From NCBI GenBank assembly GCA_000310025.1, contig FN649751.1, forward strand, positions 6,554,504 to 6,587,846: a stretch of 33,343 bases of DNA. Reading direction: 5' to 3'. The notes under the pieces are model-generated. The model worked only from the letters and a program-made list of their open reading frames with translations, was not told the origin of the DNA and ran no database searches. Made by a program: the position numbers and the translations under genes. Each line of letters begins with the position of its first letter. Position 1 is the first letter of the stretch. This DNA is from Ectocarpus siliculosus (Eukaryota > Sar > Phaeophyceae > Ectocarpales > Ectocarpaceae). Shown piece after piece: positions 3,301-33,343 of this stretch.

Positions 3301-5785
3301 TGATCATCTTGATCTTGTAGATCGCCGGGCGTCCGTTCTGCACTGCCTCCTCGTCGTCTTCCGCAGCCTGGTTGATCTTGAACATGAACTCCTGGGCGAT
3401 CTGCTCGCGCTCAGCCGTGCTCAGGTCCTGAGCCTTGCGCTTCTTCATGGATGCCAGGACCTTGGGGGCCAAGTCGGAAGTCATAGTCATAGCATCCATG
3501 ACGCCCACGGTGTTGGAATTGTAGGGGCATGAGAAAAGGACACAGCGGGCGACCTTACAAGCTTTGTGCATGTGCATGTGTCCACCACGTACTTGTGCAT
3601 TCTGTGTCGATGCTGGCACACCATCTACAAACGAATCGCCATCAAGGCTTGCCTTTGTCCGTGCAAGTCACATCCCCGTAATCGTTTCGCACGCTTTCAA
3701 CGACCACAGCAGGCGTGCCGCTGCTGCAACTGCTGCTGCTTCTGCACGGTGCTATGCATGATACTCTTAACTCACCGCGGTCATGGCACTCTCCTTCTTA
3801 GGGGCATCGTGGAAGTTCTCTGGGTTGTTGTCCTCCTCCGCCTCGCTGTGGTCTCCCCCTTCCGGCTCGTCCTGCTTGTACTCGTTTAGCAGGTCTGCGT
3901 TGTCGTCCTAAGAACACGGGGGGGGGGGGCTCCCTCAAATTCAAGCCTATAAAGCAAACCGTGTCACGTGATCAAAGGTATTGGTAGCCACGCCAAAACG
4001 GATGGTACGGTGAGTTTCCATGGGTTGTGGTACCGTGGGATAGCGGGTTATTGTGTGGCTTACATGACGGGTGTTTCTAGGGTCTGCGAGGCACCCACCC
4101 CCGCTGCATGTTTTTATCTGGCGTCACCCCCGGGCTGGGGCGGCTGTGTGTGGAAAGATCAGACAAAATGCGCATCCAACAAAAACTTCCACCTGGCGCG
4201 GTTACGCCGAATCGCCGTTACCCTATCCACGACACAACTTGCCGGCAGGCTTCCGTACCGTACCCCAGTTGGGATCATCCCAACATGACATCACACCACC
4301 CGCCGGCGAGGTCGTCATTCCACGGCAGCAACCGCGCTAAAAAACAGCTTTTTTTTGCGAATGCTCCAGCTGCTTGGCTCTAAATGGGTGTTGTTAGCGA
4401 CCCAAATTAGCGCAAAGTTTCGTGCGGATACTGCCAGCAGGGCGGCCCAAGATTGATGTATGCTATGTGGCGGCAAAGTATGAACCCCACCCCATCCCCT
4501 TGTGTGAACCCTGCCCGTACAACAGAAACCATCGGCTTCTACATACCCCCTATTCTCCAACGGTATGTACTTGGAAAAAATTGTCGAGAAACTGCCGAAC
4601 ACGATTACGGCTACTCTTAGCACAGGAAACCACTTCTGAACACCCTTCTAAATGGCCCAACTAGCTAACCAGTAACTTCCTCTCCCAATCGCGATATTTT
4701 CTGCAAGGACGCGTGAAACGAACCTAGACTATCGTTGCGGCAACAACATTTTGTACGAAAAATGATGCGGTATCTGGTGCCATAAACTACGGAAAAGCAG
4801 GGCGCATATAGATATGCATGCTTCAACGAACAGCATTGGGATTTTCGCTTAATTTAGTTACCGCACCCACCGCGTCGTCGATGAAATCATCGTCCTCCCT
4901 CGTCCGCTTGTTCGGTGCCCTCACCACCTCCTCACCACCATCGCCACCTAGCCCCTCATCCTCCTCGTCCTCGTGCTCTACCTCGGCGTCGCTCAAGTCG
5001 TCATCGCCATCGTCATCGTCTTGGTCTTGTGCCGCTTCGTCCGCCGAGGACTCCAGCCCAAGGTCTTGCAGGGTCGAGCTCTCGACGCTTGTCGTCTTAG
5101 CCTTCTTGGACTTCTTTTTCTTGCCCTTCTTCTTCTTGGTCGTCTTCTTACTACTGCCACCCTCCACCCCTTCCTCAACGTCGCCGTCCTTCTTCTTCTT
5201 TTTCTTCTTCTTCTTCTTCTTGGTGGGCTTGTCCCCTTCCCCTTCCCCGTCCGTCCCCTTCTTGCGCTTCGACTTGCTGGAACCCTCGGCACCAGCCTTG
5301 CGCTTCTTGCCCTTTCCTTTACCTTTACCGGAGCTATCCCCCTTGCTCAACCGGTCGCCTCCGGTCTTGCCGAGGGTTTTGCCCCCTGACCCACCCTCCT
5401 CGTCGTCGCTTTCCTCGAAAGGATCGACGTCTGCCACCGCCGTGTCATCGTTCTCGGCTCCTCCCTCTGGCGGCGGCGCGACCTCCTCCTCGCTGTCCGA
5501 CCCGAACACATCGGCATCCATTGCCAGCTTCTCCGCATCGGCATCCGCTGGGAAGGCCTCATCATTATCGTCCTCGCTGTCACTAAGGCCTGTCCCTCCC
5601 AAGGCGGCTCCCACGTCCGTGGGCGACGCGCCCGGCTTGTTGCTGGTCATACCCTCATCGTCATCGCCATCGGAGTCCAGAGCGCCAGCACCCCCGCTGG
5701 GCGCATCCTCGTTGTTGTTATTGTCGGCTTCTTCTGCGGGGTCAAACTCGTTGGCGGAGGAGTCCGACCCGAACACATCGTCCAT
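322..5785 (-). CDS. IWS1: IWS1/SPN1 transcription elongation factor, six exons
   Basis: IWS1/SPN1 binds the Spt6 elongation factor and RNA polymerase II complexes in the nucleus. Proposed exons in transcript order: 5785-4871, 3907-3776, 3460-3299, 2586-2500, 1712-1572, 837-322. All junctions are phase 0. The model gives about 650 residues. Residues 1-305 are an acidic, Ser/Asp/Glu-rich region with a long Lys run, as in the family's disordered N-terminus. Exons 3-6 form the conserved TFIIS-N-like IWS1 core: INQAAEDDEEAVQNGRPAI, then LAKKELQETFLEFDLLGVLK, then LKRSGIGKVVM, then RRLRQLVSKWNRPVYEKETN, then KARVPFSNGYAF. These line up with the human and Arabidopsis proteins as I know them. Two ends are uncertain. 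The exon 3 acceptor could lie at 3553 instead of 3460, because no AG follows the best pyrimidine tract closely. The C-terminus could splice at a CAG|GTTTGTG donor (exon end 481) instead of reading to the stop at 322. It is head to head with EMC4. Confidence 0.92.
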
Positions 5786-6234: not shown

Positions 6235-8451
6235 ATGGCACCTCCCGAACGAACATGGCGCTTCGACCTCAACCCTGGGCCAGGAGAGGCCCCAAAATCA
6301 TTGGCTAGACCTCTGGGATTCAATCCGGGAGCATTAATTGACGTGAGTTCCTCTAGGGCTTCTGTCGGTATCAAAAACGCTCATCATCCGGTGTGCTGTG
6401 AACCAAGCCACCGCACGCCCGTGTTGTGCAGCAGACTCACGGACCATCGATCAGGATACACTGTTGAAGCTGTACTGTGTGTCACTTCTGTGTAGATATG
6501 TTGATGGAACTGCAACTACGAGTAACGGACAAGAGGAAGCCGGGAGGGAACCGCACTTGTTCCTGCCGGTGCCGGATGGGTTGCTGGTTTGTCTTCGCCC
6601 AAGAGACCTGCAAGGTGCACACTGCACACACACCAGGAAGCCAGTGGACAACACAGAGGAGGCGAGCCCACACTAGGTCTACTGGCTTCGCATCAGGGCG
6701 AAAACTGAACCAATAACAGTCAATCGCTGGGAAATACGAAAATACAGCAGCGTACACCTTGTCGGTGATGTGATGCATCTCCCACTCCACCCAGCGAACA
6801 CCCGCACGTTACAGGAGTACCGAATAGACTCCTGTACAGACTACAAATCTGTTATCGAACAAAGCTAATGGGTGTTTGTGTGGGGTGCATATGCGGCAAG
6901 AGCCGTGTAGTGGACCAACGGGGCCTTGTCCCTTTACGCCCCGTGATGCTTGGCGGTTCAATTCAACGAGAATGCGCAATTGCTCCGCACGCGCTTCCTC
7001 CAAGGGCGACGGTAAGACACGAATCCTTCGCCCGTGGGTCGCGGTACGGCCGCGCACGCGGCGGGCGACCTTGAAAGAACCCAGCACCTTTTCAAGACCC
7101 TAGCCGCACCCACCGACACTACAATATCTTTGTGTCTGAGCCCGGAGCCTAACCCATCGGATAATGTAATGGCGTCGTAGGCCTCTTCCTTTTTCTGTTA
7201 CAGATGTACTGGGCACGAAGCTGGAAACTACTGTACTGCTGTACCGCACCTGTACGTGACAAGAAGCTCGGCCGTGGATGAAACATGCTCCTCGAGGGGA
7301 CTGTAGCGATCGTGGCATCAGCACCGGTTTGACTAACGCAACAACAACGTTTTGGGAGGATCACACCCCAATGTTGACGAAGTCCGTCGAACTCCTTCCC
7401 CCCCCCCGTGTCGCTATCGTATTGGTACTTTCTTGCATCAATCAGGATGATGACGCCACCGGGCCGAGCGCACTGGCACAGGAGAACTTGAAAAAGAAGG
7501 TGAGCGAACGTGGGATAAGATTATCAGAGAAAACTTAAAGCAGTGCCACCAGAAGTGAGGGTCGATAGTCAGCCTTACCTTGAGGCACACGTGCCTCGGC
7601 GGCATGATAAAAAATATGCTTCTCTCGAAGAACAGTAAAGTTTGTTAAACCTTATGCTACCCCCTCCGCGTCTCCTTGCACGCGTGTCCTTGATTGTGCC
7701 CACCCACCCGCCATGTTACTCCTGCTTTCCCGTCGACCACCAAAACAGAGGGCGATGGAGATCGCGCTAGGGCCGGGGAAAAGTATCTTGATGAACGGTT
7801 TCATGATGTACATGTCGGGGGCTGGCATTCACATCTTCAGCATCATGATTACCTTCATGGGGATCATGAATCCCGCTAAGGCGATCCTCAGCGTTCACAG
7901 TGGTGAGTGAGATGAGAGCCGACCAGCAGTAAACAAACCGCAGCAAACTTCCGATATTGAGTAACAGGAAGGCTGTGGTTTCACCTCATGTGTCCGAAAC
8001 CAAGCCCTGTTTGTGTTTTAGTGTTTTTCTTCCTGTAGCAAGTCTTCTACCGCCGTCACAATTTTTTAGCTTCGCGCACTTGTCACTCTCACGCCCTTGT
8101 CGAAGAAGTCGCGTGTGGCTTGCACGGCATTTTCTGCTAGTTTTAGGGATACCATCATTTACAACACCACGCACCATCCCTGCGGTATCCACCGCTTACG
8201 CACCCGCTCAACCCGCGATGTCATCGCCCCGCCCGCCCGCCCCGCAAACGTATGCAGTCTTCCGAACAGTCGACGATGGCAAGATTTCCCTGCTCTTGCC
8301 GAAGCTCATATTTTGCGCCGTCAACTTTGGGGGAGTATGTGTCGCTCTTTGGAAGATGGCCAAGATGGGACTGTTGCCTGTAACCGCGGCGGATTGGACG
8401 TCTTACCTGGTGCCGAAACACGCCATCGAGCAGTCGGGAGTTCCATTATGA
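6235..8451 (+). CDS. EMC4: ER membrane protein complex subunit 4, four exons
   Basis: EMC4 is a small subunit of the ER membrane protein complex, which inserts tail-anchored and multipass proteins into the ER membrane. Exons: 6235-6342, 7446-7499, 7749-7902, 8258-8451. The phases (0, 0, 1) agree and the total is 169 residues; the human protein has 183. The N-terminus has the family's [12 protein letters not shown] pattern. Exon 2 supplies ENLKKK and exon 3 continues [20 protein letters not shown], matching the family W-[DE]-IALGPLKQIPMNLFIMYM block. The remainder of exon 3 is a hydrophobic hairpin. Exon 4 holds another membrane segment followed by [15 protein letters not shown], the family's C-terminal signature. 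The start ATG has a good context (gaaccATGg). The 1.1-kb first intron contains nothing I recognise. I found no alternative family that fits. Confidence 0.93.
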
Positions 8452-9707: not shown

Positions 9708-11400
9708 CTACTCGTCCAAGCCATCAGCAACAGCTACTCCCGCGGGGCCGACGAGTCGAAGTCTCCGTAGGACTTCCGCCCTGTCGGGCACACCCGGTCC
9801 ATCCGGTCCCAACAGACTTGCCCGTCGAAGCTCCCCCACCAACCGCTGCAAATCCTCCGCCGTTCCCGCGGCTGGGGAAGTCTTAGTATTTCTATAGCCC
9901 TCTACTGGTTGCGATACGGCACCACCACTGCTGCTACTATTCCCCCCCCCTCCGGCAATCTCACTAGCACCCGTAGATCCTAGGGGTGCTGCACTCAACG
10001 CAGCTCCAGACGTGCTACTTCCTGCCGCCGTTTCGAGTCGTAGCCCTCCTACCGTCCCCGCGTCCTTCTCCGTGGATTGCCCCCCGCGAGCGGCCTGCTT
10101 GAGGGCTGCTTCCGCAGCGGCGGCTGCGCCGTACAGCGACCCGACCTCCCACCCCGCGGCCGCCCCCACCGCGTAACCCTGGTCGAAACCCTCCTGTACG
10201 GACTCCTGCACGCCGTCATCCACGCCGTCCTGGTAGCCGAGGGTGGTGAGGCGGGCTTGGAGTGCCGCTAGTTCTCTGCGGAATCGAACGAACGCGGTTT
10301 GACAGACCAGGGGATGGATCGATGATGAGGTTGGTTAGCGCTCACGCTTGAGCGCTTGAAACGTGCAGTTGGCAGGGGAGACATAAGAGAGGGACAGCGA
10401 CAGAGGCATAGAGGGGAGAGGGAGAGGAGGGAGAGAGAGAGACACACACCGAAACTGCGAGGTACAGACTTGCACAGAGAGAAGGAGGGAGGTACCGGAA
10501 AAGGGGACTGCGAGCACAAAGGGTGTTGTGTGTGAATTATTCACGTATGGTTAAAATTTTACCGTTATATCCGTCCCGGGGGGGTATGCCAAGATTGCAA
10601 TGGACTGACTACTACCGAGGTGACATAAGATATCACACCCCCTGGACATGTTTTCAAAGCTCGACTATTCCACAGCAGAAACAGTGGCGGCGCCGATAGT
10701 TGCGGCATTGGGACCGTCTGGTCGATGGCTTTCCGAAAACGTACGTTTGGCTTGTACATCCTCGTCGTCGTGGGCTAACATTGAGCTGTGAGTACAAGTA
10801 TTGATCAAAGGGGGTGTGATATCTCATGTCACCGAAGTACGGCTGTCGATACCAAAGTTTTAGAAGTTGCGAGACAAGGGTTCCATCTGCCTCACCACAA
10901 ACGCCAGCAACACCATACAGAGAAGGTGCGCTGCTGGTAAACAGCCACCATGGCCCTTCACAACAACCGCCGCCGAGGTCGCAAAAGCAGCTACGGCTGT
11001 ATGCTTGTTTGTACCGCACCTCCAGCAAGGGCATCCAGCATCCAGCTAAGCGTCCACGTGTTGCCTCTTGTGGGATGGCATAAATAAGCCAATGAATGGT
11101 CTACCATCAGGAGTGCTCAAAAGCGGATATCATTTTATGGGCTACAGGGACAACTGCATCCGAGGCAGCGCGTAGGGGCATGCGTACGATAGAGCGTCCC
11201 CGCTGTAAAGGTAGACTCATTTAGCTTCAAGCGAGGTGCTCATCGGCTTGGTTGTTCGGGGCATTTTCAAAAGTTCAAACACAAAACATGATCCACCTGT
11301 CGGCCATGTCGCGGGATTGCTCTCGTTCCTCTTCCACATCATCACCGAAGAACTCGTCGACCCCATCCACCCCAAAGATCTCCGGCCTTTTCTCTTCCAT
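9708..11400 (-). CDS. YAE1: Yae1-domain protein (Fe-S maturation adaptor), two exons
   Basis: Proteins with a Yae1 domain act with Lto1 as an adaptor that brings the cytosolic Fe-S machinery to the ABC protein Rli1/ABCE1. Exons: 11400-11297 and 10275-9708. The junction splits an AGA codon (AG|A) and gives 223 residues. Exon 1 encodes an acidic N-terminus beginning MEEKRPEIFG. Exon 2 begins with RELAALQARLTTLGYQDGV, followed by the repeated G-x3-G pattern typical of the domain (QEGFDQGYAVGAAAGWEVGSLYG). After the domain come Ala-, Gly- and Ser-rich segments and a short Leu/Arg-rich helix near the end; this tail is much longer than the domain needs. Family assignment is strong. Whether it is the Yae1 or the Lto1 orthologue is not settled by sequence alone. 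The gene is head to head with the deacetylase gene and its intron carries an inverted-repeat element. Confidence 0.85.
10619..10833. repeat. MITE-like element with 25-bp inverted repeats
   Basis: The left arm is 10619-10643 and the right arm 10809-10833. The arms are reverse complements with one mismatch (ggtgacataagatatcacac against its partner). The interior of about 165 bp shows no coding signal. It lies in the single intron of the Yae1-domain gene. I could not define target-site duplications, so calling it a mobile element is inference. Confidence 0.6.
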
Positions 11401-11575: not shown

Positions 11576-14500
11576 ATGTCGAGCATGTCGGCCGGAGAAG
11601 TGCAGGAGCTGCTTTCTACTGTTCAGATCGACGAAGGGCGCTTCGTAGGGCTGCTGACCAAGTTGATCGACAATGTGGCAACGCTCCAAAACAACCCTTC
11701 CCAGGTATGTTCCGCCGTAGAACGCGTCTGCTGGTCACGGATCGTCGCACAATCTCGAGAACAGCAATATATTAGCTCTCGTCGATGTTCTGCTATAGTC
11801 TACACCCGTACTTGTTGTGCACATGTCGGTTGTTCGAGAAACTGCCGCCTCTGGATCTGCTCTGCAACCTAACAGTTTACTGCTGTTATGAGCGACCAAG
11901 ACAGCAGTAGTCTACATACTGTACAGTAGTGTAGTACGGCGTTGCATTTGTATCTTGTATCCGTTCATCGGATGGTTCGAGTTGAACGTTGAACCTCTTC
12001 GGTCATCTACAGAATCTACGAATCTACAGCCAGAACGACAGCAGCAGTGCCCCTCTGAACCTCTGAATGTGTGCGAAGCCACCAGAGGTTGCCTTTCGAA
12101 GAGCAATTTCCGGTGCCACCGCACGAGGGCCCTATGCTCTCCACAATTACGGTAGCTTTCGCGGGAGCAACGAGACCTTGCAGCTACTGTAAAGGGTTCT
12201 GTTGTAGATTACAGATTACTCCCGCCCAACAGGAACGACAACGGACACTTGCTCTATACAGTCTACACTGCCTGTGTTCTCGAGCTGCTGCCTGAAAACT
12301 ACGAACAGTAACGGTTCCCTGTTCCTGCGGACGGATGTGCGGTTGCGATGATGTCTATTTCCGTCCGATCGTCGATCCGATCGCCCGCACACCCCCACGG
12401 CCTCCCAGAACATGGTCCCGAAAGAGGACAATGCCAGCGACCATGTGCTAGAGCTCTTGAAGCCCTACACCACTGAGAACGGTGGCCCGCTGGAGGTGGA
12501 GCGGGTCCACTTCACGCCGGGGCGCGGGAACGTCATCATCAAATACCCAGGCAAGCCATCATCTGAGGAACATTAATATCGAAAGTAGTTGTTCATGGGA
12601 GAGACGCTTCTCCTGCCAATCAACAAGAGTATGTTGCATGCATACGAAACGACGTTGGATCACCGTAAGTCCCTGCGTCTGTAACGGCATTTTTTTTCCT
12701 GCTGTAACTGGTACTGCCCGTCTTCCGTCCCCGCCCTCCCGTGCCTGCGCGTTCTGGGCAAACCCCTCGAAACCCTCGCATACGTGACGACGCAGGCACT
12801 GGGGACAAAACGGTAACCTTCCTGGGAAGTCACCTAGATGTCGTACCGGCGAACCCGGAAACGTGGGAGGTGGGTTTGCTCATGTTTGTTCAGTGCAGAT
12901 GCAGTGTCGTTGAGGTGTGCTGAGGGAGCGTGCGTCTCGCCAATGCCCAACGGCAGAACCTGGTGTGTGGCATATTCGCTTCGCACACTCTGTGGATATT
13001 CATTGGTGTGGTTAGATATGTTTGGCGGGACTGCAGCCGGTCCTGCGGCAAGACTGTCTAGCATTTTGTATTCGAATTGCGCTGTCCGAGGGTCTGTTGA
13101 TTTTGGTTTGCGGGCACACGTTGAGAGCGAAGACTGTTATTGATAGTTACGACACCCAGACTCGGACTGAAGATATATGCCATGCTGCAGAGTTTTGGGG
13201 ATGACGAACGGACCACAGGGAGGCCCGATTTAGTTTTTGTTTCCCCCCCCTATGCCAAGCCCCCCCCCCGGTGTTTGCCATCGGGGTTGGGTTTTCGTCG
13301 CTTGGCAACGACGTTGTAAAACAAGCCGCCCCCCCCGGTGTTTGCCATCGGGGTTTGGGTTTTCGTCGCTTGGCAACGACGTTGTAAAACAAGCCGCCCC
13401 CCCCGGTGTTTGCCATCGGGGTTTGGGTTTTCGTCGCTTGGCAACGACGTTGTAAAACAAGCCAATTCACTTCGTGAACTCGGCAACCAGGTTACCGTTT
13501 TTTTTTTTTTACCTCGGTTTTTTTTTTTGCGGTAACCATAATGGTGGTCGAGTAGATCATGTTGTGCGGGGTCGAAAAACCTCACTCCGCGCAACGGGGG
13601 ATGATCGCACCTCGTTGTGTTAAAATGGTCAAGCTTCCTCGAGGCAGTTACACAGCGCTTACAACTGTCTCTGGAAGTGAAAGCACCAGAAAATAAATTA
13701 AGTCATACGTAGCTGACATCCGTACGCAAGGAAGTAAGCACAAGATGCCGAACACCCTTAGCAGGATGCAGCTCACCCTTCATGCGACTCGCCAAATACC
13801 TCACGGCGCTTCGCGCTTGGTGATGTGAGAGCCTGGTCCGGTGAGAACCCGGCGTGCTCCGTCCCGGCTTTGTAGGGATGCGAGGTCAATGGTCAAACGA
13901 CTACGGCATGCACGACTATGAGCACCCCCCCCCCCCCCCCCCCCCATTCCCAGCTTTTTGGGGCCCAAAAATCTTCTTGTAAGGGTTGGCCCAGGGAACT
14001 TTTCTTAACATGGCCCCTGGTTTGCTCCCCAAAGGACCCCGGGGGATCCCCTTCCCCTTTCCCCGGGGGGGGAAAAACCCTCCCNNNNNNNNNNNNNNNN
14101 NNNNNNNNNNNNNNNNNNNNNNNNNNNNNNNNNNNNNNNNNNNNNNNNNNNNNNNNNNNNNNNNNNNNNNNNNNNNNNNNNNNNGGCGGCCCCCCCTTCT
14201 TGGGCCTCCCAAAATCCCCCCGGGCCTTTCCCCTTTGGTATTGGAAAACCCTGTTCCGGGGAAACCCCGGGGGCCCCCCCCCCGGTTTTTTGGGGTGGGG
14301 GGTTAAAGGTCAAAAGGATTCGGCCACCCCGGCTTTGGGCCCCCCCCCCCCCCCCCCCCCCCTATGCCAAGCTTTCGTGCGCCAGAAACTCTCTCTGTAA
14401 GTGTTGCTCAAGTGAACTTCTCTAATCATGTCGCATGTCTTGCTCACTATGGTACGCAGGTGGATCCCTTCCACCTTACCCGGGATGGTGACAAGCTCTA

Positions 14501-16610
14501 CGGCAGAGGGACGACCGACTGCCTCGGCCACGTGGCGATGATCACGGACCTGATGGTGGAGCTAGCCACCAAGCGGCCGGCTCTCTCACGGACGGTGCTG
14601 GCGATTTTCATGTCAGTCACTCAGCCAGCCGGCCAACACAGAACACGGACATAGGCTGGTGGCGGGAGTGTTTATTTTCCTCGTTCAAAACAATTTTCCT
14701 TGTGGGGGATCGGGTGCAGACATGACATATCATTGTGGTTGGTGCCGTGCCAAGTACTTCGTGTCTATGTTCGGTGCAGAAGTTGGCTTACATACTACGT
14801 CGCGGGATGACACGATTTGGAAATATCTGACTGCCGCCGTATGCTCTCTTGTCCGTTGGGGCAAGAACATGTTTATGTACTCCGGCTGAACGCAATTTTG
14901 CATTTGGCGCGCAACTGGCCGGTCTTAACGGCACCGGTAACTTAAGGCAACGCATGGAATCGTTTGGCAGGTATATTGATGCCCGCTTGCATCCGAATCA
15001 ACCAACACGTGATGCCAACCACGTTTTCCCCTGTCACTATGTTACTTTGTCACTATGTCACTGCCTGTGCCACTGTGTCACTGCTGTGTCACTTTGAACA
15101 GCGCGAACGAAGAGAACGGGGAGATCGATGGGGTCGGTGTAGACGGACTCCACAGCTCGGGGAAGTTGGACGAGCTCGGTATCGGCAAGGGGCCTATCTT
15201 CTGGGTTGATTCTGCGGACTCCCAGCCGTGCGTCGGCACTGTCGGGAACATGCAGTGGATGATCAAGGCCAACGGAAAGCTGTTTCACTCGGGCCTGCCT
15301 CACATGGTAAACCTGGAACTTGTCATTCGTGTTGGGTGATGTGGGTGGTGTTTGTTGGTTACACGACAAGTGCCCAGCAGCAAGGCGTTTTTACTTGTCT
15401 CTTTGTGTACAGTATGCATTGCTTGCTGATTACAACGGCCCTAATCATGTCGCTGATCTGTTTCGTCTATATAACACGCACGATCACACCCGAATGAAAA
15501 GGAGACCACCAGACCGCGCTCTCCGCACGCTGGGAAGAGTCCGGAAGTTCAAGTGAATGAACTTGCTGCATTGTCCACCACTGTGGTGTCTGTTCAAAGA
15601 CTTTTCTGTACTTCGGCCAATCGTTAGCTGTTCATGATATCAGAGAGCAACTGGCATCATCCCCCGACACAAAAAACATTTCGCTTGCCAAGCCGGTGTG
15701 GCTAATGAGAATAGGGCTCGAGATGAAGCCGATGTTCCCTCCGGCCTATTACAACAGCAGTATACGACCGAAGTTCACATCGAAGAAATATTATTTCGTG
15801 TCCCGCCGCTCTCTGTCCGTGTGTGTATCTATAGGCCATCAACCCGATCGAGATGGTGATGGAGGCTGTGGCTATGGTGCAGAAACGCTTCTACGAGGAC
15901 TACCCGCCGCACCCCGATGAAAAGAAGTACAACTACAAGTGCTCTTCCACGATGAAGCCGACACAAGTTCAGGTGACAGGGGTTTCAATTCTAAACGGTT
16001 TTTCTCCTTGAGCGAGTTATGTTTCTCTTTGTTTTGTTGTCCGGTGTCAGTGTAGTTGTTACCACAGAGTTAGCGAGAGGTCAAGCCCAGGCGAGGGTTT
16101 ACATTCTGGGCACCGAGGGCGGGTTTCCCCTCGTATTTTCGTATTTTCTGGCTTGTTGGCGGGTACCACAACAAACATTGTAGTACGAGGAATACGTTGT
16201 AATATATACATGCATGGCTTGGAGCACCGGTAGAGTCCAGAGGAGAGACGAAACAATATTGTAGTCGATGGATGTTGAGATACAAAACAAAGCATGAGAA
16301 AGTACAGGATTACGAGCATGGCGGACATGGTTTTGGCTGCGACCTGCTCTACCATAGCCTCTGTCTCGTGTCATCCCTTGCTACAATAAGATGACGGTTC
16401 GCGATTTCTTGCTGGTGCTGGCACTGATCTGATCGACCCTTTATCCTATATCCTGTCACTGCACCGTTCAAAAGTTGCTTGCTGTTGCCGGACCGACTTG
16501 GAACTGTCCTCTTCATCGAGAACCCTCCGCCTCTCCAGCTCCTTTCCTCTGCTACGCGCACCGTTTGAGGTAAACCCGCCCTACCTTACTCTCCTGCCCC
16601 TCCTGTGCGA

Positions 16611-16656
<46 letters not shown>

Positions 16657-18733
16657 CCTTAACGATCGGCACGGACACGACTGCGCTCCAAACGCGCAAC
16701 AAAAAAAAACACAGTGCGCGAGCGGCAGCATCAACCAGATCCCCCCGCACGCAACAGTCTCCGGGGACTGCAGGGTGACCCCTTTCTACGGCGTAGACAA
16801 GGTCCAGGAGAGCATCGAGAAGTATGTGGCTGACATCAACGCCGACCCGTCCATCCTGCCGAGCCGCGGAGCCTTCTCTAAGTACGTGCTGCCAGCGGAG
16901 GGGCGCCAGGGAACGATCGATTTGACGTGGGTCACGAAGGGCGAGGATGGCATCGCCTGCAACCTCGAGAGCGAGGGTGCCGACGCACTGAACGGGGCTA
17001 CGGCAACGGTGAGTGAATGCTGTGTTAAGTCTTGAGCTTCGGTGTTTAGCCACCCAGCTGCTTTTGCAGCGGAGACGCAGCAGAGACGGGGAGGTTTCGA
17101 CAGTAGTTGTGTGTGTCATTTTGCAAGTGATAAAGAATCGTTTTTTTCAACCCCACTATGCATCAATGTTCATGTACCGTATGAGTCGGAGAGATGGCAC
17201 CCCCGTGTTAGCGTTTTTTAGTAGCGCATTGCTCCACAACCAGGGGGTAGCACTGCCGAAAAGGGTAGTTTTGGAAACATATCGTCGAGGGCTTTCCTAA
17301 GAGATATCGGTTGGTGTTCGCACCCTCCTAAATAGTTGTGGAGAAATACGCTACAAAAAACGTTAACACGGGGGTGCCATCTCTCCGACTCTTGCGTTAC
17401 GGTATTCCATATTCATAGTCTTGTTCTTCCAAGCGTGTGGTGTCCGACGGGTAGCGTGCCTTTTGCAGCACATGCGCTGCTGCCGTAGGTGGCAAACCTC
17501 CACTTTGGTATCTTCGTATATTGTAGCTGGCTTCGGGTGGTTCTTCAGGCGGATATCGATGTTGTCGCATGTGTAGAAGGAAAGCGCCATATTCCCGTCC
17601 AGTTGCACCCAGAATTAGGGCGCTGAACTTCAGTTCGGGCAATCGCTGTTGGCATGCCCTGATGGGCCCCATTGTGATATCGTGCGGCCGTGGTGTGGGG
17701 GCGGACTGGGGATACGATACCCTACTGTTGCTGGCAGGAATTCCATTTTGGTTCTTTATGCGTCCTAGGTTTCGGTTGCCTCACTTGGTGGCTAGACTAG
17801 ATACCTCGTACGGTTGCACATTCACGAGCGATGAAAGCGCGGTATGGATGCTGAATCCTTGGTTCTTTCCGCTCGATTAGCAGAGACATTATGGTACATG
17901 TATGTATCACGTCGTTTTTTCCTTGCTTGCTCGTTTTTGGCAACGTGTGTCACCATTCTCTTGTCAGCGAAACACGATGCCGCGTGACATATTTCTGTCC
18001 TTTCTTTTCTGCAGGTTATCGGTCAGTCGGCACCCTTCGCCATCTCTGGATCATTGCCGCTGGTACGATGGCTCCAAGACCAAGGCTACGATGTGCAGAT
18101 CTGCGGATACGGCTTGAGCTCCCGCTGTGAGTGATTTCCCCCAACATTTGCACCTCCATGCTTGCCCGCGCTTTTTTTTTTTCTGGATAAATTTGCCGAC
18201 ACGCGGGCCGGCCGCCCATCGTAGCAAGAAGTATGCCCATCTCTGGTTAGGCTCGCGGCATGTACTCTGAACCAATCTTTCGTTTCAATTTCCCTGTGAT
18301 ACTTGAACGATCGGGCGACCGCTTTGATGGTGTGGAGAAAGAGTGTTTTAGGGCTTAATCGTGATATATCGTGCGTTGTCGTCAAGGGCAAGGTCTGGTT
18401 ATTCTACTGTCGACAACAACATGCTCACCTAGCCGTGCTGCCGCACGACACGGAGGTGCAAAGGGCCATGGACACAAGCGCTTTGCGCGATGTTTTCTGC
18501 CGCTGACAACATGGTGAATGTTTTTGTCTCCGCGGTTCTCTTGTCAGTTCTAACCTAGGAACATGGTAAGTGTGTTCTGTATCTGTGACGCCCCCTTTTC
18601 TCTGTCCCTGTTGTGTTCCCTTGTGCGCTGCCCACCCACAGACCACGCAGAGAACGAGTACTGCAGCCTCGAGGCGATGGGGAATGCCGTGAAGATTCTT
18701 GCGGGCACAGTTGCGCGACTAGAGAAAAACTAA
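11576..18733 (+). CDS. argE: Acetylornithine deacetylase (M20 metallopeptidase family), nine exons
   Basis: Hydrolyses N-acetylornithine to ornithine and acetate in arginine biosynthesis. Exons: 11576-11704, 12409-12550, 12796-12869, 14460-14611, 15102-15306, 15835-15972, 16715-17008, 18015-18126, 18642-18733. Every junction is phase-consistent, giving 445 residues against about 440 in the Arabidopsis homologue, which it follows end to end. The M20 metal and catalytic residues are present: H103 and D105 in LGSHLDVV, D135 in GRGTTDCLGH, the E169-E170 pair in ANEENG, WVDSADSQP, the dimer-site His in LFHSGLPH, and the C-terminal His417 in YHAENEY. Intron 2 uses a GC donor (CAG|GCAAGC). Intron 3 contains the tandem repeat and the N gap, and intron 7 an inverted-repeat element. 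The N-terminus (MSSMSAGEVQEL) has no signal peptide, so a cytosolic enzyme is likely, unlike the neighbouring LeuD. Confidence 0.97.
12551..12795 (+). other. GC-AG intron in argE
   Basis: Intron 2 of the deacetylase gene begins with GC rather than GT (CCCAG|GCAAGC) and ends TGACGCAG. Joining at these points restores the family sequence ...IIKYPG|TGDKTVTF in frame. No GT close by gives that result, so the GC donor is well supported by protein continuity. Confidence 0.85.
13270..13463. repeat. Three-copy tandem repeat of about 67 bp in argE intron 3
   Basis: Copies begin at 13270, 13337 and 13405; the third is truncated at 13463. They are nearly identical apart from one T indel and C-tract length. 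Each has a C tract, ggtgtttgccatcgggg, a short hairpin (cgtcg...cgacg) and gttgtaaaacaagcc. The near identity indicates recent expansion or assembly duplication. Confidence 0.85.
13490..13537. repeat. Inverted repeat enclosing two T tracts
   Basis: ggttaccg at 13490-13497 and cggtaacc at 13530-13537 flank two T homopolymers separated by acctcgg. A smaller perfect hairpin, ttcac-ttc-gtgaa, lies just upstream at 13466-13478. Both follow the tandem repeat directly. Confidence 0.55.
13921..14362. other. Assembly artefact: 100-N gap flanked by two corrupted duplicate segments
   Basis: N bases occupy 14085-14184. The stretch 13946-14084 is a degraded copy of the good sequence from 14363 to about 14505: both begin after a C tract with a [c/t]atgccaagcttt-like start, share ttgtaag and the gctcac...ggtggatccctt region, and diverge mainly as homopolymer errors. 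The stretch 14185-14340 is likewise a degraded copy of about 13763-13923 (ctttggtattgg against cttggtgatgtg; ctgttccggggaaacccc against ctggtccggtgagaaccc). The real locus probably has a single C tract joining 13923 to 14363. Confidence 0.85.
16614..16654. repeat. CT microsatellite in argE intron 6
   Basis: About 20 uninterrupted CT units, 60 bp upstream of the exon 7 acceptor, inside what would be the extended pyrimidine tract of that intron. Confidence 0.85.
17175..17404. mobile_element. MITE-like element with long terminal inverted repeats
   Basis: The left arm is about 17175-17240 and the right arm about 17335-17404. The arms are reverse complements with few differences: taccgta at the tips, then gagtcggagagatggcaccc, a shared T/A homopolymer, gtagcg and ctccacaac. 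The internal spacer is about 95 bp and non-coding. It lies in intron 7 of argE. The long arms and lack of an open frame suggest a non-autonomous DNA transposon relic; a clear target-site duplication was not found. Confidence 0.7.
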
Positions 18734-19488: not shown

Positions 19489-21244
19489 TCATCTTCTTCG
19501 CCGTTTACGCCATGCCCTTCTTCGAGCCGAGTCTTCTCCTGCGGCCGCGCTTCTCGCAGACTCCTCCCTCATCTCTTGGAACCTCCGCCTAGACCCTTCG
19601 CCGTACGCGTCTTCCCCCTTCTCCCCCTCGCTCTCGTCCTCCTCGCCCTCTTCACCGTCTCTACCCGCCGCCCGCCAAACCTCCGCCGTCACTACGCCCG
19701 TTGAGGGCTTGACCTTCTCGGCGTTGTTGGTGCCCCCCTCCTCGAAGAAGTGTTTCAAGATTAGGCTTGCCGCAAGGGAGTCAATCTCCACCTTGCTGCT
19801 CATCCCACCCCCATAGGGGTCCAGCATGGCCGCGGCCTGGGCGGAGGAGAAGCGCTCGTCCCACAGGAAGACACCGGCGGTAGGCCGCGACGCGGCGCCA
19901 ACGTCGGCGAGAACGGAGGCGAAGCCGCGCACGATTTCACACATCTCGGTCTCCGTCCCGTTCCTGTAGGCGACAGCAGTATATCAGTACACAGACGTGG
20001 GCGTTGGTTGTTGGTGGTCATTGCATCAATCGATAGCACCAATGAAATTCGTGGACATAGGAAGAAATATGCCCACTTGTCGTCCTGCTGTGTTGCATGC
20101 TTCGAAGCTGCTCAGCAGCATCGGCGTGACATACTTCATTGCCAGGATTTTAGCAGGCGCTTGTGGTTCAAGGAGAAAGCGGTGTGGGTGATGGGCGGCC
20201 ACCGAAGTTCCGAATCTAATCGAACGAGGCAAGTTGGGTATGCCTACTTTCGTAAACCGCTTTCTGGTCGCGCGAAGGGTTTCGTTGGACACTCTCCTCG
20301 CGGAATCGCTGCTACTGAATTGTACGTTGTACGTGCAGGCAAGGTTGGTGAAGTACATTACAACTGCTGTCGTAGTCTACCCCAAGAGCAAGTGCTCCAT
20401 GAATGGTGTGCCGAAATCGGGAAGGTTCTCAGAAAGTGTTTGCGGGCAGTGTCCAACCACGAACTTCCATCTCCCGCAGCGCGCCAACACGTGATGGTGC
20501 TACAGTCCTCACTCAAGCACCACATGAGCCCAAAACCTTTCAAAAGCATCCGTCAAAACATTGCTACAACGCATGGGCGAACATATGACGGGGATGCCGT
20601 GAACGGGTACTACAACTGCTGTACCTTTCGAGCGGCAACCCCACGACGATGTCTCGGATGCCTTCTCCGCGGGCTCGAACGAGCACCTGGCGAGCGACTT
20701 CCAAGTCGCTCCCGACGTTGGTGACGCCCGGCACCGCACGCGGGGATATCCCTACACCGATGGCCAGCCCCACACGACGGGTTCCGTAGTCCACACACAG
20801 CGTCCTCCTTGAAGGCCTAGTCTTCGTCTCTTGGCTACGGGTGTCCGTTGTCTTCACAGCAGTAGTTGAGGAAGGCTTGGGAGGATAGAGCCAGGAGACC
20901 GATGGGTGAACATCCTCGTCGTCGAAATCATCTTCGTCTTCATCGTCGACGTCGTCGTCATCGTGGATCTCGATTGGGTCCTCCTTGCTGCCGCCGACAA
21001 CCTCACTGCCAGTAGACGAGACGGCGGTGCTGCCATGCATAGAGGCGCAACGTGCGGTGCTTGTTGACGTTGCAGTTCGTAGAACTGGTCTAGTTGATGA
21101 TGGTGCTTTTGTGGAGAACACAAAAGCGTCCCCTGCAGGCCAAATTAGAGTGAGCAGAGTCGTGAACGCACAGAGGCACACTGCAGGCGAAGAAAGCCAT
21201 GGTTTTCTGGGCCTTGGCAAGGCTTCTCCCTGCGTTGGAGCCAT
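19489..21244 (-). CDS. ruvX: Plastid-targeted YqgF/RuvX-like putative Holliday junction resolvase, two exons
   Basis: YqgF/RuvX proteins have an RNase H fold and are linked to Holliday-junction resolution and pre-16S rRNA processing in bacteria. Exons: 21244-20625 and 19963-19489. The junction splits an Arg codon (AG|G), giving 364 residues. Residues about 20-40 form a hydrophobic signal peptide ending PAGDA|FVF. The Ala40/Phe41 site followed by a Ser/Thr-rich stretch is the secondary-plastid bipartite targeting pattern. A highly acidic linker (about 92-111) follows. The YqgF domain starts at LCVDYGTRRVGLAIG (Asp152), continues through DIVVGLPLERNGTETEM across the splice site, FLWDERFSSAQAAAML, and ends with EIDSLAASLILKHFFEEGG. 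A charged Glu/Arg-rich tail of about 70 residues follows. Targeting is inferred from the motif. The in vivo substrate is not known from sequence. Confidence 0.92.
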
Positions 21245-21417
21245 GGGAGTGAGTGCACTTCATCATGCTTTGAGTGGCCCCGTGAGCACATGCACAGCGC
21301 TGACGGGGGGGGGGGCGTAAAAGGAGGGGATTCCGCGACAGCCACGAGAACCAGCGGTAGGCCGACCGCCAGCTACGCGCACAGCAGCAGCAGTAACATC
21401 GGCAAGGCGTAGTAATC
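21245..21417. promoter_or_regulatory. Short bidirectional promoter between the YqgF gene and leuD
   Basis: The two plastid-targeted genes start 173 bp apart on opposite strands. The segment holds a G tract near 21304-21315, a purine-rich stretch and a short CAG run at about 21382. No TATA box is visible. A shared promoter is inferred from the distance. Confidence 0.55.
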
Positions 21418-33007: not shown

Positions 33008-33343
33008 CTGGGGTAGGGGGGGGGGGGGGTAAAAGGCGGGGGGGGGGGGGTTTTTTTTTGGCCGGGGGGGTTTTTTATCTAACCCCCCCCCCCCGAAAAT
33101 ACCCTGTTGGGGGAGTGGATCCTAACGGAAACCGGGGGGGGAAGTTGAAACGGCGTGTTTGCCAAATATAAACAGTTATGGTTTCTTCGGGGTGGAATAA
33201 AACCCCTCCCTCCCCCCCCCCCCCTGTTTTTACAGAAAACCCAACCCTGTTTTTTTTTTAAAAAAAGTTGGGGGGGTTCCGGGGTTTCCCGGGAACTTTT
33301 TTGGGGGCGTTTTTCCCCACAATTAATGACCTTTCCCCACCCC
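33008..33343. other. Low-quality sequence at the right edge
   Basis: Dominated by long G, C, T and A homopolymers in patterns like those of the corrupted segments around the N gap. It begins about 20 bp after the possible donor at 32988. I do not trust any reading frame here. Confidence 0.7.

Follow-up and report, generated by a model that had tools for sequence, protein, structure and literature searches.

Does the single gap in this stretch of Ectocarpus siliculosus DNA hide missing sequence, or do the two contigs beside it meet? The window, by which we mean the whole stretch analysed (33,343 nucleotides), contains one run of N, of exactly 100 bases, which lies inside an intron between two exons of an M20/ArgE-like gene. 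To the left of the gap come, in order, a clean flank, a tract of 21 C and 139 run-rich bases. To the right come 155 run-rich bases, a tract of 23 C and another clean flank. The features of the locus are the following.

12801-12869 (+): exon before the gap, 3' part, translation GDKTVTFLGSHLDVVPANPETWE.
12870-14459 (+): intron that holds the gap, GT...AG; 1590 bases as assembled, probably about 1174 in reality.
13767-13922 (+): left flank in clean form, from which the right smeared copy derives (alignment, diagonal scan).
13925-13945 (+): tract called as 21 C at the left contig's end; presumably the same tract as 14340-14362.
13946-14084 (+): stuttered, smeared read tail that copies 14364-14502 in the + direction (93/139 identical).
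14040-14041 (+): copied splice acceptor site, CG as against AG in the clean copy (14458-14459).
14085-14184 (no strand): placeholder of 100 N (N-run count), very probably a false (negative) gap.
14185-14339 (-, a direction suggested by position): smeared read tail, a copy of 13767-13922 (103/155 identical).
14340-14362 (+): tract called as 23 C where the right contig starts.
14364-14502 (+): right flank in clean form, with the end of the intron and the start of the exon, from which the left smeared copy derives.
14460-14609 (+): tested part of the exon that follows the gap, VDPFHLTRDGDKLYGRGTTD..., of the M20 peptidase family (PF01546, E 1.6e-6).

The original prediction held that each flank of the gap is a corrupted copy of the opposite side, and computed alignment of both pairs of segments bears this out. 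The left copy, 13946-14084, had been paired with 14363-14505; its refined partner is 14364-14502, to which it aligns without gaps. The right copy had been placed at 14185-14340 with 13763-13923 as its partner and refines to 14185-14339 against 13767-13922, in 155 aligned pairs with one gap, where one source base is skipped. Both local alignments score 50. Among 1000 dinucleotide shuffles the mean score was 8.9 for the left copy (sd 1.38, maximum 15) and 9.04 for the right copy (sd 1.45, maximum 17), and 0/1000 reached 50 in either case. We also scanned all ungapped diagonals on both strands with the slip model described below. With the copies themselves excluded, the proposed partners ranked best, with log-likelihood ratios of 83.0 (left) and 86.6 (right), as against 13.7 and 16.4 for the best unrelated diagonal. 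The adjoining contigs carry each other's sequence at their ends, as in a negative gap. A 20-base stretch of the right flank, searched as an exact match, had no hit in a collection of bacterial and archaeal contigs, where absence is expected.

The errors in the copies had been described as mostly of the homopolymer type, but they are not changes of homopolymer length. They are substitutions by a neighbouring base, with runs lengthened and positions unchanged. The wrong call equals a base adjacent in the clean copy at 45 of the 46 mismatches on the left and at all 52 on the right, or 97/98 in total, as slippage stutter would have it. When the called bases were shuffled among the mismatch sites, the adjacent-base share averaged 51% and 53%, and 0/5000 shuffles reached the observed value in each copy. 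Outward from the tract, the previous true base is called most often, in 42/46 (left) and 42/52 (right) cases, and the next true base in 22/46 and 32/52, a class that overlaps the first. Errors fall on 38/85 (left) and 49/96 (right) of the single bases and on 8/54 and 3/59 of the bases in runs, and they are most frequent where both neighbours are identical (19/33 left, 22/31 right). The fraction of bases in runs is 0.83 and 0.90 in the copies, as against 0.38 and 0.39 in their sources. This neighbour-substitution pattern is the output to be expected of a base caller confronted with several superposed, slipped ladders.

We modelled the trace past the tract by superposing the true sequence on itself at several offsets and biasing the call towards the strongest signal. 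The slip weights, fitted separately, were similar in both copies: about 0.35 at offset 0, 0.3 at -1, 0.13 at -2, 0.06 at -3 and 0.1 to 0.2 at +1. Slip superposition gave a negative log-likelihood of 69.6 (left) and 78.4 (right). A model with uniform errors gave 138.8 and 156.0, and a 4x4 matrix of substitutions, likewise fitted, gave 129.6 and 148.0. With slip weights taken from the other copy the values were 78.4 and 88.1; with those weights mirrored and the register fixed they were 134.8 and 145.5. As a caller the cross-fitted model is only moderate: it predicts 102/139 calls on the left and 117/155 on the right, compared with 93 and 103 from identity alone. Of the wrong calls it recovers 29/46 and 25/52. 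When the register was free to move by one base, the reading direction was clear for the left copy (83.0 versus 65.4 reversed) and weak for the right (86.6 versus 82.4), since shifting the register by one base nearly offsets the reversal. As reversal costs the right copy little, the right tail's direction is read chiefly from its position next to the tract.

The smeared sequence starts at long homopolymers. Over the 100 bases on each side, the run fraction jumps abruptly from 0.39 to 0.80 across C21 and falls from 0.90 to 0.30 across C23. Shorter tracts elsewhere in the window have ordinary flanks, with run fractions of 0.45 and 0.53 at G12 (3918-3929), 0.46 and 0.39 at C10 (7398-7407), 0.44 and 0.35 at C9 (9942-9950), and 0.40 and 0.40 at G11 (21305-21315). 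A further C10 (13260-13269) sits in a tandem repeat and has flank run fractions of 0.51 and 0.65. Besides the moderate performance of the model as a caller and the weak direction signal of the right copy, two observations count against the slip explanation. The C tract was called at unequal lengths on the two sides, 21 and 23, and G19 (22-40) is clean on its right, with a run fraction of 0.38, and has 0.62 over just 21 bases on its left. The 21 odd, run-rich bases that precede G19 (1-40) are possibly the end of another smeared tail.

A similar-looking segment closes the window. The run-rich, smeared-looking stretch 33030-33343 begins right after G14 (33016-33029), a long homopolymer like C21 and C23, where the run fraction rises from 0.43 to 0.81, with 100-base windows up to 0.87. 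We searched the window for its source on all ungapped diagonals in both directions and found none, the best scores off the segment itself being 18.5 and 19.9, as against 83.0 and 86.6 for the two copies at the gap. Its source probably lies beyond the window, and the segment is probably another stutter tail, located where a contig ends.

Could the copies be real? If two old duplications had decayed on either side of a C-rich insertion, with unseen sequence at the N, they would be collinear, as the copies are, and an identity of about 67% could reflect decay. The mismatches speak strongly against this. In simulations of neutral decay (2000 runs per copy, 2:1 transition bias) the adjacent-base count averaged 21.3/46 and 23.0/52 and never exceeded 33 in either copy, far from the 97/98 observed. 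Transitions make up 15/46 and 18/52 of the differences, roughly the one third expected without a transition bias, and the 294 aligned pairs include one single-base gap. Decay would also have to account for the raised run fractions of the copies, and the crossed layout, in which each side copies the other starting exactly at the tract, would need coincidence. We regard this account as having next to no chance of being right.

The two other explanations stay within sequencing. Two alleles or clones with C tracts of different length, read together, would give a simple overlap of two ladders in which neighbour substitutions are equally expected, and two offsets are indeed far better than one (AIC 279.6 to 186.5 on the left, 314.0 to 236.7 on the right). 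However, the AIC drops with each added offset through three and four to five, the largest number tried, where it reaches 150.6 and 167.4. More than two ladders were thus mixed, and a plain two-allele overlap is highly improbable; if true, it would leave the conclusion of a false gap unchanged. An overall loss of quality towards the ends of long reads, independent of the C tract, is slightly less improbable but still very unlikely as the whole cause. Peak broadening at read ends likewise gives false runs, yet identity does not drop with distance from the tract (15/23 left and 13/23 right in the first 23 pairs; 15/23 and 15/23 in the last full bin, 115-137), and the change is abrupt at both tracts. 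Such a loss may add to the slip effect, and were it the cause, the gap would likewise be false.

We therefore return to slipped read tails. Judging from the finished sequence, we give a probability of about 96% to the reading that the 100-base gap is a false gap, produced by two slipped read tails, with no DNA missing. The true locus would consist of the left flank (to 13924), one tract of about 21-23 C and the right flank (from 14363). One read or read set would have run into the tract from its left side, and a second one from its right side. Slipping of the polymerase in the tract would have turned the trace beyond it into a set of ladders shifted by about -3 to +1 bases, and a base caller taking the strongest peak would have converted single bases into their neighbours and created false runs. 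The resulting tails would have differed too much from the clean contigs opposite for a merger, and scaffolding would have inserted the standard 100 N, presumably a placeholder of unknown size. We infer the Sanger chemistry, the assembler's behaviour and the exact length of the tract, and likewise that no true unique sequence lies beneath the N. The idea that two read tails crossing a C homopolymer had failed to merge was already part of the original prediction, and it gains support, independent of the alignment, from the adjacent-base mismatches, the shared slip weights and the onset at the tract. Its estimate that the locus is over-long by about 440 bases fits the span 13925-14362 (438 bases), but the net excess is smaller, about 415-417, because the real C tract (21 or 23 C) belongs in that span. 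The feature is not biological; it is an ordinary artefact of sequencing and assembly.

The intron itself has other peculiarities. A tandem repeat at 13256-13463 has a period of 68 bases, 3.1 copies and 98% matches, with a C tract in each copy. A 15-base word that occurs in it three times (at 13308, 13376 and 13444) may be one known from the start of E. coli lacZ and the region of the M13 primer. A blastn search against plasmids returned 3 chance-level records, and such a search is hardly able to detect so short a match. The word CCCCCCTATGCCAAGC occurs exactly twice, at 13245-13260, just before the tandem repeat, and at 14357-14372, where the right flank leaves the C tract, compared with 0.00 occurrences expected by shuffling. 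This shared word could have complicated assembly at the gap.

The gene can be read across the gap. The intron begins with the donor GTGGGT and ends with the acceptor CAG, and the flanking exons join in frame (...PETWE|VDPFHL...). The joined peptide matches residues 7-58 of an acetylornithine deacetylase (7rsf_A, E 4.6e-7), a match that spans the junction. Other M20 enzymes match it as well (12 distinct sequences, E up to 0.001), and the second exon has a match to PF01546 on its own (window 14307-14651). As noted previously, the left copy holds a decayed version of the acceptor and of the exon start: the smeared copy spans both, and the AG has become CG. It had been feared that automatic annotation might call a partial exon duplication here. 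One frame stays open over the copied start of the exon (ORF 14009-14425, +), but the copied acceptor lacks its AG, so a false duplicate exon at that site seems unlikely from the sequence. The intron would measure about 1174 bases, that is 1590 minus 438 plus the tract of 21-23 C.

A Pfam scan of 9 open stretches in the window gave any match for 5, the fifth being the M20 exon. The stretch 16574-17032 (+) has an M20_dimer match (E 7e-5) and is probably a later exon of the same M20 gene. The others are a Yae1_N match at 9711-10334 (-; E 1.6e-10), an EMC4 match at 7933-8448 (+; E 4.3e-10) and, at 20567-21259 (-), a RuvX match (E 4.6e-6) under its curated cut-off, with a second sub-cut-off match to PF23501.

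The case combines known kinds of artefact. As the term is used in PMC3504050, a negative gap separates adjacent contigs that should overlap but do not do so by sequence, the true gap length being less than zero. Here too the adjoining contigs are due to overlap and their sequences disagree, although in that account the overlap is expected from mate-pair distance and here it is read from the smeared tails. Stutter by polymerase slippage in Sanger sequencing, as described in PMC10643650, adds peaks immediately before or behind the true one, is stronger at homopolymers and leads to wrong calls. In our locus the second fitted ladder nearly equals the first (0.31 versus 0.36 and 0.27 versus 0.35). 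PMC4053816 treats it as well known that certain loci are hard to sequence owing to slippage of the polymerase. False duplications at overlapping contig ends are described as 'duplicated overlapping contigs' of the Kelley type in PMC2864568, which gives divergent haplotypes as their cause, whereas slipped base calling at about 67% identity would be responsible here. We also considered a haplotype false duplication for this locus and rejected it: it needs high identity and ordinary polymorphism, and here 97/98 differences are explained by a neighbour. A limited literature search found no paper on reciprocal stutter copies around a gap, and we do not claim that none is in print.

These results give a test that requires no reads. 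Where nearly all mismatches equal an adjacent base, a slipped read tail can be recognised from the finished sequence alone. We suggest, tentatively and with more doubt than confidence, that stutter tails at homopolymer gaps in Sanger-era drafts can be decoded, the slip kernel of one tail predicting another, so that many such gaps could be recognised and closed without new reads. If so, the tail after G14 at the right end of the window would be a second case. Smeared copies beside an N gap should not be taken for a duplication, for the remnant of an exon or for unique intron sequence. For the M20/ArgE-like gene, the consequence would be an intron that is too long in the assembly, with the coding sequence across the gap intact.
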